Source: Synechococcus elongatus PCC 11801 | GTDB lineage: Bacteria > Cyanobacteriota > Cyanobacteriia > Synechococcales > Synechococcaceae | Length of the DNA stretch: 64,000 bases | NCBI RefSeq assembly: GCF_003846445.2 | Contig: NZ_CP030139.2 | Span: 1,240,001 to 1,304,000 of the forward strand | Direction: 5' to 3' | Shown here: positions 21,828 to 28,806 of the stretch, in pieces | How the letters are laid out: each line of letters opens with the position of its first letter | Numbering within the stretch: the stretch's first letter is position 1 | The notes under the pieces: generated by a model | The model's database searches: none | Told to the model about the DNA's origin: nothing | What the model saw: only the letters and a program-made list of their open reading frames with translations | Program-made: the position numbers and the translations under genes

Positions 21828-21911
21828 TGCTCTAACTGCAACCGCAGCAAAACTGCCCCTGTTGTAGCTGATTTAGGCTCGAAGAGAGATTAGCTCGCTA
21901 TGTCATTCATT

Positions 21912-22709
21912 TCACAACTCATCTGCATGAGTGCTCGAAGCAGTGCGCTCTAGAAACTGTTTGCCGCAATCCTTACATAGATAGCGTTGCTTGTTGTAGC
22001 GATGCCCATTCTTCGACAAGCGGTCAGACTGACAGTAATGACATTTCATTACTTTTGCCACTTTTTCATCCATTGACCTTGGCCCAATATGGGGTACCAG
22101 ATAGGCGACGAGCAATGCCTTGAGTTCTGCGTAGCGCGATCGCCGTTGATGCTCCTCTCCCCGTAACGCTTGCAGCAGTAGGGCGTTGTAGCACTGATGA
22201 ACCGTTTCAGCGAGGCGCTCACTCTTCTCAATCGGCAATGCCGGATTCCACTGCCGCAAGAAGTTTGCATATTGCTCAATCAACTGACGATTGAACGTCT
22301 CGTCAAACAGCACAAATAGCTGAGGCGCCACAAAGTACTGGACATAGACCACCTGGGGAATCGGGTCTTGAAAGTAGGCGACATGCGCTTCTACCAGGCG
22401 ATCGACAAACTCCGCAAAGGGTCGCTTCAGATCCGCAGACTGCAGGAGTTCCCGGTTGAGGGCCGTCACGTTTTCCATGTGGCGGGCTTCTAAAGCGTGA
22501 AAAATGGCGAGTTTATCGGGAAAAAACTGGTAGAGCGAGCCGATCGCCGTTTTTGCCCTGGCAGCAATCATGTGGGTGGTGGCGGCTTCGTAGCCGACTT
22601 CTACAAACACCTCGGCTGCCGATCGCAAAATTTGCTCAACCCTCTGTTGGCTGCGCTGCTGCTTGGGCTGTCGTCTCAGGGGCGTCGGGCTCGGTTGAGA
22701 TTTGACCAT
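21912..22709 (-). CDS. TetR-family repressor with a C-terminal transposase-type zinc ribbon
   Basis: 265 residues from ATG 22709. The open frame reaches 22766, but that would place the 24-bp palindrome 22737-22760 inside the gene, so the internal start is preferred. An N-terminal TetR helix-turn-helix (ILRSAAEVFVEVGYEAATTH ... GSLYQFFPDKLAIF) precedes a ligand-binding helical domain to about residue 215. The last 45 residues (KCHYCQSD ... YLCKDCGKQF, cysteines 223, 226, 245, 248) are an InsA-like zinc ribbon normally found at the start of IS1-type transposases. This seems to be a fusion created by an IS insertion. It probably represses itself and the divergent Rieske gene. Confidence 0.8.
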   Translation of the reverse strand: MVKSQPSPTPLRRQPKQQRSQQRVEQILRSAAEVFVEVGYEAATTHMIAARAKTAIGSLYQFFPDKLAIFHALEARHMENVTALNRELLQSADLKRPFAEFVDRLVEAHVAYFQDPIPQVVYVQYFVAPQLFVLFDETFNRQLIEQYANFLRQWNPALPIEKSERLAETVHQCYNALLLQALRGEEHQRRSRYAELKALLVAYLVPHIGPRSMDEKVAKVMKCHYCQSDRLSKNGHRYNKQRYLCKDCGKQFLERTASSTHADEL

Positions 22710-22736
22710 CGGTGACTGAAAGACCTTCTTGACAAA

Positions 22737-22760
22737 GATGAATAATCTGTCGTATTCATC
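22737..22760. promoter_or_regulatory. Perfect palindromic operator between TetR and Rieske genes
   Basis: GATGAATA (22737-22744) and TATTCATC (22753-22760) are exact inverted repeats around an 8-base spacer. The site lies between the divergent starts at 22709 and 22790, at the size and place expected for a TetR dimer controlling both genes. Confidence 0.7.
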
Positions 22761-22789
22761 AAACATGAGAGTTTCGTCACAATTTTACT

Positions 22790-23743
22790 ATGTCACCCAT
22801 TCTCCCGGGCGCACCGTGGCTGGTTGCTCATCGCTCAATGTTGGGCATTAACCAGCCCTACAAAATTTCCTTGAATGGCCAGGACTACGTCCTCTGGCAG
22901 AATTCGCAGGGCGAGGTCTTTGCCCTCAATAATGTGTGTCCCCACATGCAGGCTCCGCTCTCAGACGGCTGGGTTTGTCAGGAGCGAAATACCATTACTT
23001 GTCCGTTTCATGCGCTGGAGTTTGATGGACAAGGACGGCTGCATCAAGCTGGAAAAGTGGGAGCGCAGCCGCTCATCGCTCCGCTGGAACTTGTGATTCA
23101 GGGCGATTTCATCTGGACGTACGGCGGTATGGATGCCAAAATTCCGGTTCCTGACTTGATTGAACGAGTGAGTCAGGGCATGACTTTTGTGGGCGTTGCC
23201 GGAGAAAAGAGCATCGAGGGTCCCTTTCTACACAATCTGTTGATCAACTATGACTACAACCATCAGAACGGGACTCACCGAGAGCTATTTGCCATCAAAG
23301 CTAATCGCATTCCTGTCTTTGAAAAAGAGGGTTACTGGGCAAAGGTTGTGCAGGAACTTGATCGCAGTGATCCGACCTTCGCAGACATTTGCCGCAACCC
23401 GGTGATTCTCTCGGCACCCAAGACCTACACGAGTACGCTGGAATATGCGTTTCCAGCAATGACGACCTTTAAAACTCGCTTTGCATTGGGCGAGATTTTG
23501 CAGGTACACGTGCTGTATCCAGAAACTGCAACTCGTACTAAAGCCTTTGTCCTGGCTTTTGCCAAATTCAATCATCCCATCTTGAAACCGCTGTTCAAGC
23601 GATCGATGTTGAGTGCGGTGGCAACGGTTGTGGAACAGGATGCACGATCGATCGAAACGTTGTATCCGCGTCAGGCTGCGAAGATTCGCTTACCCAATGA
23701 GGAGATCATGGTTCATGCGGAAAAACTCTACCGGGAATGGTGA
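22790..23743 (+). CDS. Rieske non-heme iron oxygenase
   Basis: 317 residues. The Rieske [2Fe-2S] site is C50-x-H52 (CPHM) and C71-x2-H74 (CPFH). The catalytic mononuclear iron motif D155-x2-H158-x4-H163 fits the D-x2-H-x4-H pattern of Rieske oxygenases such as the PaO/chlorophyllide-oxygenase type; no C-terminal membrane helix is obvious. It hydroxylates or demethylates an unknown small molecule, with electrons from a ferredoxin. Its gene is divergent from the TetR regulator across a shared palindrome, so its expression is probably substrate-inducible. Confidence 0.85.
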   Translation: MSPILPGAPWLVAHRSMLGINQPYKISLNGQDYVLWQNSQGEVFALNNVCPHMQAPLSDGWVCQERNTITCPFHALEFDGQGRLHQAGKVGAQPLIAPLELVIQGDFIWTYGGMDAKIPVPDLIERVSQGMTFVGVAGEKSIEGPFLHNLLINYDYNHQNGTHRELFAIKANRIPVFEKEGYWAKVVQELDRSDPTFADICRNPVILSAPKTYTSTLEYAFPAMTTFKTRFALGEILQVHVLYPETATRTKAFVLAFAKFNHPILKPLFKRSMLSAVATVVEQDARSIETLYPRQAAKIRLPNEEIMVHAEKLYREW

Positions 23744-23930
23744 GGGTGAGCAGTGATTAAAGCCTAGGCAATCTGCTCAAAATCGGAATAAGACTAATAA
23801 CCGCTATATGGGTTAATGCACTACTCTGAAAGACTATCCAAAAGTGCAGCTAGCTAATGTTCTGCTGCACTCGCTGCTGTGGACCCTCGGACTCAACCGA
23901 CTAACTTCGTGTAGTTAGTCTGCAAGCAGG

Positions 23931-27259: not shown

Positions 27260-27445
27260 TCAAGGTAACTCAGCAATCCAAAGTTTCATCGAGCAATAGA
27301 GCCAAAAATGAATAAACTCTCTATCTAATCTTACAAATAAGAAAATTACTGCTTTGTTGCTATTCCACTTATTGCAAAGTGCAATCTTAGATTTTTTAAC
27401 TACTGGAAATCCACAACGTGGACACCAAATCATAAAGACTTTCAC
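27260..27445 (-). pseudogene. Degraded InsA-like transposase zinc-ribbon fragment
   Basis: A 61-residue frame begins MKVFMIWCPRCGFPVVKKS, a CxxC zinc-ribbon start like IS1-type InsA proteins. The second CxxC half is lost in this frame, but a neighbouring frame reads NGIATKQ, FSYL and D with stops between, followed in the first frame by DREFIHFWLYC. Combined, this resembles a decayed SKNG...KQ..YLCKDC.REFI block, the same motif as in the TetR fusion at 21.9-22.05 kb. I take it as the relic of an insertion sequence. Confidence 0.45.
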
Positions 27446-27637: not shown

Positions 27638-28423
27638 TTATTTGCCACGCACGGGAAAGTAAACAAGAAAAAAAGAAATAATTCCTAAGACTGTTCCAAT
27701 AATGCTTACGACTTGTATAAAAGTGCTATTAAAGCCAAGAACGAAGGTTGCTGCAAGCGTAACACTCACAAATATAACAGTGCCAATTATTGAAGCTAAT
27801 AAGGGAGTTGTCTTGATCAAAATTGACTGGCCACTTTTTTTGAAGATCTCTGTCTCGATCAAATTAACGTATTTGTATCCCTCATTTTTAGCTAAATCGT
27901 GGATAAGAATTTCCCAAGGTTTTTCATAATTGGGTGCAAAAATTAACTCAAACGTGCAGAGGTTATTGATATTTTCAAGTAGCGAACATGCAAAAATATC
28001 ACCTATATAAACCTTGGAAACTGATGTCACATCAAGAATTACATTTTTCCTTTTCCCAAGATTAGAGATGAAGCTTCTCAGCTGTGAGTACTCGACTCTA
28101 TCTACTGACCAAGAAATACTATCTGTTAGGCATAATGCGTATTTTGCCTTTAGTTCTGCAAGATCTGAAGCGTTATATATTGCTTCTAATTCAATTTCTT
28201 TTTCTGTTGAGTCCCCAGTGTAATATTTATAGATCCCATTTGAGAGACTCTGAAGCAAGCTGTAAACATTTGTTTGCAATGAATTCAGTCTAACTTCCTT
28301 TATCCGATCATCTTTAACTTGGATAAATACTATCTTCCTCACGCCTTGTTCAATACAATGCACAATTGGATTGAGATACTGATCCGGTCTGTCAGTCGTG
28401 ACAAATATATATAGATCTTTCAA
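27638..28423 (-). CDS. CARF-like nucleotide sensor with two C-terminal membrane helices (defence effector)
   Basis: 261 residues. The N-terminal half (about 1-180) is a Rossmann-like alpha/beta domain: DLYIFVTTDRPDQYLNPIV as the first strand-loop, KIVFIQVKDD as the second, and NVILDVTSVSK (D131, T133, K137) as the D-x-T-x3-K motif of CARF-type sensors that bind cyclic nucleotides. Two membrane helices follow (about 206-229 and 235-256), then a short basic tail. The start is TTG 28423, only two bases after the mCpol stop, with GGAG about 10 bases upstream inside the mCpol gene, so the two are translationally coupled. By analogy with mCpol systems it would permeabilise the membrane when the signal changes; this is inference. 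Confidence 0.75.
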   Translation of the reverse strand: MKDLYIFVTTDRPDQYLNPIVHCIEQGVRKIVFIQVKDDRIKEVRLNSLQTNVYSLLQSLSNGIYKYYTGDSTEKEIELEAIYNASDLAELKAKYALCLTDSISWSVDRVEYSQLRSFISNLGKRKNVILDVTSVSKVYIGDIFACSLLENINNLCTFELIFAPNYEKPWEILIHDLAKNEGYKYVNLIETEIFKKSGQSILIKTTPLLASIIGTVIFVSVTLAATFVLGFNSTFIQVVSIIGTVLGIISFFLVYFPVRGK

Positions 28424-28425
28424 CT

Positions 28426-28806
28426 TTAATTATCTCCAAAAGCTACGACACGTCCCTTTCCTGAAACCTTTGCTGTTCTTAGAGAGATTAATGCCTCAAC
28501 TGATGTTTTTCCAACGCCAAATGACATTGTCTTTCCAGTTTTATCGAAAAAGTATTTGGAATAAGATGTCAAGATGTCTTCAATGCCTAGATCATCTGAA
28601 GTGATAAAACATATATCGTCACCAGCAACATATACTAATGAAGCCTTGATTTCATCCTTGGCAAGGGTCGCTATATCTTCAAGGGCTGATTTGACTTGAA
28701 AGGAGAATTTACTGGCTTCTTCGAGATTCCCTGAGAGCAAGTGGAGATCAATAACGTCACCTATATTATCACCATCACCGATACAGATTAGTCTGTTATT
28801 AGACAT
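28426..28806 (-). CDS. Minimal CRISPR polymerase (mCpol) domain protein
   Basis: 126 residues, a single palm domain related to GGDEF and Cas10. The first metal-binding motif is CIGDGDNIGD (D11, D13), the second YVAGDDICF (D63, D64), and the C-terminus has SFGVGKTSVEALISLRTAK followed by GKGRVV, matching the SxGIG and AKxxGKN block of Cas10 and mCpol. It has no sensor domain and no CRISPR genes nearby, which is characteristic of mCpol. The predicted activity is synthesis of a cyclic oligonucleotide. ATG 28806 has a good AGGAG site. It forms an operon with the CARF-like membrane protein. Confidence 0.82.
   Translation of the reverse strand: MSNNRLICIGDGDNIGDVIDLHLLSGNLEEASKFSFQVKSALEDIATLAKDEIKASLVYVAGDDICFITSDDLGIEDILTSYSKYFFDKTGKTMSFGVGKTSVEALISLRTAKVSGKGRVVAFGDN

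Follow-up and report, generated by a model that had tools for sequence, protein, structure and literature searches.

The locus described here lies in a 64 000-nt stretch of the Synechococcus elongatus PCC 11801 genome (the window) and carries two divergent genes with a shared promoter region. The gene on the (−) strand (positions 21912..22709; 265 aa from the likely start, an ATG at 22709) codes for a TetR repressor with a C-terminal InsA-type zinc ribbon. The longest ORF of this gene, 21912–22766 (−), has Pfam matches to the DNA-binding domain TetR_N (47.4 bits, cutoff 24) and to the TetR-type C-terminal ligand/dimer domain TetR_C_15 (68.6 bits, cutoff 26.8). The AlphaFold2 model of the protein has a mean pLDDT of 85, and the best Foldseek matches to it are TetR-type regulators by title. 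Translation probably starts at the internal ATG at 22709: alignments with relatives set in at around residue 20 of the long ORF, and upstream of this ATG there are conserved promoter sites, over which the longer ORF would run.

TetR repressors have two domains as a rule. The initial annotation described a TetR protein of normal length continued by a tail with the cysteine pairs CHYC and CKDC, and this description holds on ORF 21912–22766 (−). The zinc ribbon tail occupies 21945..22055 (−), i.e. residues 238–274 of the long ORF, with cysteines at 242, 245, 264 and 267. In a search with the whole protein the tail scores above the cutoff for the NCBIfam model NF050000, IS1_IS1595_Zn (45.5 versus 28 bits, E-value 7.9e-12), and is thus an IS1-type four-cysteine ribbon, as had been proposed; its score with the Pfam InsA model (PF03811) is below cutoff (12.1 versus 26.1). 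AlphaFold2 models the tail as a three-strand ribbon (mean pLDDT 85–91, model residues 221–250) behind a disordered linker (pLDDT <50, model residues 212–219). The codon of Met240 (22047–22049, (−) strand) aligns with the first methionine of IS1 InsA proteins.

The window protein ends behind the ribbon, with no HTH or transposase reading downstream; the DDE catalytic part is absent from the window TetR, whose ORF stops after the ribbon. A remnant of an IS around the tail was considered and rejected, as no HTH or transposase reading was found behind the ribbon in the window, and in the family rows without an InsA-type HTH the 300 bases downstream gave no HTH match better than E 0.27. A protein search of the same genome with the tail returns the tail alone at E ≤ 1. 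The degraded second copy of the ribbon that had been placed at 27260–27445 could not be upheld: this segment has one CxxC and no second, reaches the cutoff of no Pfam model, is matched by no NCBIfam model, and inspection of the six frames around it reveals no IS reading. Part of it, 27347–27441, has a counterpart in the sister genome G001 (81% over 95 bp), which follows closely on the same neighbour gene; the ORFs listed for that place are all shorter than 40 aa.

The divergent gene, 22790..23743 on the (+) strand, encodes a Rieske [2Fe-2S] oxygenase and is the presumed target of the regulator; its product has Pfam matches to Rieske (69.1 bits, cutoff 20.3) and VanA_C (30.3 bits, cutoff 23.5). 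The pairing is conserved. Scanning a genome collection gave at least 569 relatives of the TetR protein, and among the best 80, which were kept, 75 loci contain a relative of the Rieske gene, in 73 cases as the immediate divergent neighbour (in L034 and L044 the Rieske relative was matched in part only). Three of the five loci without one (L030, L052 and L079) begin at most 300 bases from the start of the available sequence. In genome G069 a cytochrome P450 gene (L187 1788–3218, contig C110; Pfam p450, E-value 1e-75) lies between the Rieske gene and a TetR gene whose product carries a winged-helix-like tail, which hints at a shared oxidation pathway.

Two operator-like sites were found in the shared promoter region, both on the (−) strand. 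Site e2 (22729..22753) overlaps a TTGACA-N18-TATTCA arrangement, recognized by eye, that would serve the Rieske gene; site e1 (22761..22784) is similar to e2, has the same direction, lies 27 bp apart from it and has one mismatch to its pattern. With the consensus AAAATAYGACAGAnnnTTCAYnTTYGTCAAG, e2 is present with at most two mismatches to the pattern in all 83 distinct upstream regions of family members that have a Rieske relative in the locus, and it is exact in 81 of them versus 0 in shuffles. Site e1 is present in 80 of the 83 (at most three mismatches) and matches the exact pattern in 75, versus 0.05 in shuffles. Both patterns derive from the very sequences that were counted, and the exact e1 pattern was written after the first count, so the shuffles demonstrate the rarity of the patterns rather than an independent discovery. 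The spacing between e1 and e2 varies from 26 to 40 bp. The three regions without e1 by the pattern used belong to tailed members (L040, L041 and L066); the tailless members L022 and L092 retain both sites. A palindrome first spotted by eye in the promoter, GATGAATA-N8-TATTCATC, was discarded, as it is not kept in the relatives, whose conserved sites lie differently.

In 77 of the 83 promoters e2 extends across a TTGACn-N18-TAnnnT arrangement oriented toward the Rieske gene; the window's promoter, with TATTCA as its second hexamer, is not among them, and a sigma-70 scan gave no site in it. Overlap with a promoter is a common position for a repressor site. A search of the window genome for e2-like sites with up to three mismatches finds a single one, and for this reason the regulator looks local. 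The site was also sought from the side of the Rieske gene: matches to this gene occur in 25 of 386 genomes, and 23 loci were tested for e2. It is present in seven Rieske loci with a family TetR, all of them regions counted above or duplicates of such regions, and absent in all 16 without a family TetR found nearby. Of these 16, L164 and L171 gave a weak TetR match in the vicinity, and L178 ends before the TetR gene is reached and has the site further on. The Rieske relatives in L163–L167 and L181 have 55–60% identity and neither a family TetR nor e2 within their 1.5 kb flanks.

How widespread is the tail? Among the best 80 of at least 569 relatives, 79 are labelled as cyanobacterial and one comes from a MAG labelled Gracilibacteria, perhaps through a binning error. 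The ribbon is present in 77 of these 80 and absent in L022, L039 and L044. Since one of the six patterns used in this search lay in the tail, the search was repeated with a tail-free query against 386 cyanobacterial genomes (E ≤ 1e-20). It gave 40 places in 30 genomes, with a gap between E-values 6.8e-47 and 1.4e-33. Fifteen of the places, in 14 genomes, rank above this gap and make up the family proper, and 13 of them carry the ribbon; of the other two, L092 has no tail and L097 has a different one. Below the gap there are 25 places with weaker paralogues, and none of the 22 that were classified (L104, L106 and L122 were left out) has the tail; no Rieske relative adjoins these 22 within the available flanks, mostly 1.5 kb. 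One weaker paralogue (L011/L088/L117) shares its locus with a tailed TetR, whose Rieske gene is 1.8 kb away. In a phylogenetic tree the 89 distinct family rows stand apart from 20 tailless paralogues (support 100/99).

The initial annotation suggested that this repressor had captured an IS fragment, and it held that tails in all distant cyanobacterial orthologues would instead mark an old domain architecture. The latter is essentially what we find: because distant cyanobacteria carry the tail, both among the best relatives and in the tail-free search, the sequence data identify it as an old architecture of a cyanobacterial TetR subfamily and not as an acquisition of this one repressor.

The conservation of the tail is high. 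Its four cysteines are invariant in all 84 tailed members, N253, G254, R256, Q260 and Q270 are conserved at 100% and Met240 at 97% in the same set. Mean column identity in these 84 proteins is highest in the TetR HTH (0.86), followed by the ribbon (0.79) and the ligand domain (0.62). Mean dN/dS was 0.026/0.613 for the tail versus 0.078/0.688 for the body, as computed from 78 of 276 sequence pairs, the remaining 198 being excluded because their dS was high or undefined; by this estimate the tail is under purifying selection. In the closest pair of the window sequence (with L085) the values are 0.044/0.526 for the tail versus 0.020/0.315 for the body, so here the tail is not more constrained.

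The source of the tail is indicated by 14 family members in which the ribbon is followed by an HTH. One of them, L029, matches positions 1–82 of the 199 positions of the IS1 transposase model NF033558 (E-value 2.1e-25) with 89.9 bits versus a whole-protein cutoff of 100, a shortfall expected for a part of a protein, and its structure model has the ribbon plus three helices. This match makes the origin from an IS1-type insA gene the best reading. A composite of the ribbon plus HTH module is 50–62% identical to the eight nearest cyanobacterial IS1 InsA proteins, and seven of the eight InsA proteins compared (the exception is L130) have a methionine at the place of Met240; in L127 the open frame opens with this methionine. 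It is as if insA had been joined to the TetR gene from the first codon of insA. In L034, which also has the ribbon plus HTH, 17 extra residues stand between VMI and the ribbon's VMKCP, possibly a duplication at the junction.

In a small-sample tree (77 columns; the eight nearest IS1 loci of 30, L125–L132; L142 and L147 dropped) the 14 ribbon plus HTH tails form one clade versus the eight IS1 InsA sequences (96/98). When L142 (a wrong ORF) and L147 (a more distant IS) are added, a long IS row falls inside the TetR clade; a tree in which the clade is held together is not rejected (p-AU 0.30). The HTH-bearing members are scattered over the TetR tree, which takes six changes, and no relic of the HTH was detected within 300 bases downstream in the 83 family rows without an InsA-type HTH, duplicates included (best E-value 0.27). 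The simplest reading of these results is a single capture, with the HTH then lost in several lineages; tails may also have been transferred within the family. The direction of the capture was probably from the IS to the TetR gene, given the tailless paralogues and the many IS copies.

A few members of the family depart from this pattern. In L044 and L097 the ribbon is replaced by winged-helix-like tails related to each other (44% identity), of which the L044 tail scores just above the HxlR cutoff (20.9 versus 20.8) and the L097 tail has no Pfam match. The TetR bodies of these two proteins are not sisters (p-AU 0.00018; 41 of 109 rows), and both members retain e2 in their promoters. A search of 291 genomes with the L044 tail gave a match in G069 alone, and there the matching tail belongs to this TetR. 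Ribbon and HTH are both missing from L022, L039 and L092, and inspection of the few hundred bases downstream of their genes revealed neither.

Horizontal transfer of the TetR and Rieske genes together, as one unit, is the most likely history of the locus. We base this on two comparisons. With 17 kb of genome G028, from another family, the window shares 89.6% DNA identity over 21927–23748, that is, over the two genes only, with the last few TetR codons (21912–21926) outside the shared DNA. With 19 kb of G001, from the same genus, homology ends at 21901, just behind the TetR gene, the next collinear stretch starts from 24743, and G001 has no TetR match at E ≤ 1e-10. Relatives also occur in four plasmid records, three of them matched into the tail; in one, L016 of Calothrix NIES-4101, a Rieske gene lies alongside. 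No match to the DNA of the two-gene cassette was found in the phage collection, and two short peptide patterns, searched for in viral contigs, gave no confirmed match.

The whole segment 21902–29489 differs from G001, with the cassette, a transglutaminase-like gene and an mCpol unit among rearranged shared pieces, and its GC content drops from about 0.58 to 0.37. The mCpol unit, 27638–28806 on the (−) strand, has two genes, one for an mCpol protein (28426–28806, (−) strand; Pfam mCpol, E-value 9.2e-29; match to Panoptes OptS, 9mnr, E-value 9.4e-05) and one for a CARF-TM protein (27638–28423, (−) strand; PADLOC CARF_m9--CARF_TM, E-value 1e-62). By these matches it looks like a Panoptes-type anti-phage system.

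For the locus as a whole we lean, with a confidence only a little beyond the midpoint, toward an old two-gene cassette in which an autoregulated local repressor controls the divergent Rieske oxygenase gene, its InsA-derived tail having been captured once, the HTH having later been lost in most lineages and the ribbon acting as an accessory contact. The architecture stands in an otherwise ordinary regulator family, whose members here would bind operator DNA, presumably at the conserved sites, and be released by a ligand. A TetR dimer would bind the two tandem operators in the shared promoter and repress both genes: bound to e2 it would occlude the promoter of the Rieske gene, and bound to e1 that of the regulator gene itself. 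A small molecule tied to the oxygenase substrate would bind the regulator and release it from the operators. The tail would derive from the N-terminal DNA-binding module (zinc ribbon and HTH) of an IS1-type InsA/transposase, fused at about the first methionine of InsA in an early member of the cyanobacterial subfamily; most lineages, that of the window included, would then have lost the HTH and kept the ribbon. Folded around Zn, the ribbon would add a contact, either with operator DNA or from dimer to dimer, and so strengthen the binding. A DNA- or metal-binding role of the tail, which the initial annotation had raised, is plausible.

The role of the ribbon is where the readings diverge. In InsA of IS1 the zinc finger and the HTH are required for binding of terminal-repeat DNA, as stated in an excerpt of PMC12428005. 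This requirement, the HTH in 14 members and the likeness of the substitute tail to DNA-binding modules make an accessory DNA contact the first choice, though without its HTH the ribbon may have a protein-binding or structural role only. Also against this choice, the tailless L022 and L092 keep both promoter sites, so that conservation of the sites does not depend on the ribbon, and the variable distance between e1 and e2 argues against a rigid bridge. The ribbon could instead have a sensory role, as a zinc or thiol-redox switch through which metal or oxidative state would set the expression of the Fe-S oxygenase; this would befit four invariant cysteines and a Rieske Fe-S target, and the tailless members that keep both promoter sites agree with it. 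We regard this as improbable, given the 14 members that keep the ribbon plus HTH, the match of L029 to the InsA part of the IS1 model and the two members that keep e2 with a winged-helix-like tail in place of the ribbon. About equally doubtful is a protein–protein module, in which dimer–dimer or RNA polymerase contacts of the ribbon would allow two TetR dimers to cooperate at e1 and e2. The two sites in 80 of 83 promoters and the flexible linker would suit such a module, whereas the spacing of 26 to 40 bp and the three tailed members without e1 by the pattern used speak against it.

That the tail is a recent, local and functionless capture, i.e. the decayed end of an IS1 read through by the repressor gene, is scarcely credible. 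The tail does score as an IS1-type domain, but its distribution across the family already refutes this reading, and it is opposed as well by the purifying selection on the tail, by the failure to see an HTH or transposase remnant downstream and by the single copy found in the genome. A further extension of the accessory-contact proposal, which we put forward tentatively and would sooner doubt than accept, is that the C terminus of these repressors is a slot for a second DNA-binding module, filled either by the InsA module from an IS1-type transposon or, in two separate lineages, by the same winged-helix-like tail. The promoter would then be read by two different DNA-binding domains per subunit. 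If so, a transposon end-recognition domain would have become an accessory reader for a metabolic repressor.

In the open-licence PMC literature, as far as titles and the starts of abstracts go, no title concerns this TetR, its tail or its pairing with the Rieske gene; in the part of the FurA paper PMC4788461 that was covered, 'tetr' appears only within 'tetrapyrrole'. The findings describe a widespread TetR subfamily with a transposon-type third module and link a predicted regulator and operator with a cyanobacterial Rieske oxygenase that is so far uncharacterised. The members with ribbon plus HTH, without a tail or with an exchanged tail, together with the two-site promoter, offer a ready series for studying the effects of an added DNA-binding or zinc module.

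The cassette resembles known TetR/AcrR repressors (the nearest solved folds are BkaR 6yj2, 2oer and 3bni) in the TetR_N HTH, the all-helical ligand/dimer domain, the divergent neighbour and the sites in a shared promoter; it differs in the C-terminal zinc ribbon that the window protein adds on a linker. Among the PDB sequence matches listed (60 of 115) no best stretch goes past profile position 209 of 259, and in the 50 Foldseek matches listed per model the alignments cover ∼183–223 columns, the length of a TetR body. The tetR/tetA pair of Tn10 is likewise divergent, with two operators in the shared region; there the target is a resistance pump and the repressor has no tail. With the IS1 InsA/transposase N-terminal module (NF050000, NF033558) the tail shares the CxxC...CxxC ribbon and, in 14 relatives, the HTH. 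The window's copy, in contrast, has neither HTH nor catalytic part, and no second copy of it was found; the TetR tail is fused to a regulator and conserved over long times. The same ribbon family is also found outside transposases, in cyanobacterial NYN-domain proteins of about 430 aa, where the ribbon is N-terminal and the partner domain is different (L140, above the Pfam NYN cutoff; L144, below it; L141, assigned by its likeness to L140), and in L143, a Glu-rich protein with the ribbon near its C terminus. Thus, the ribbon seems to have been reused repeatedly in cyanobacterial proteins.
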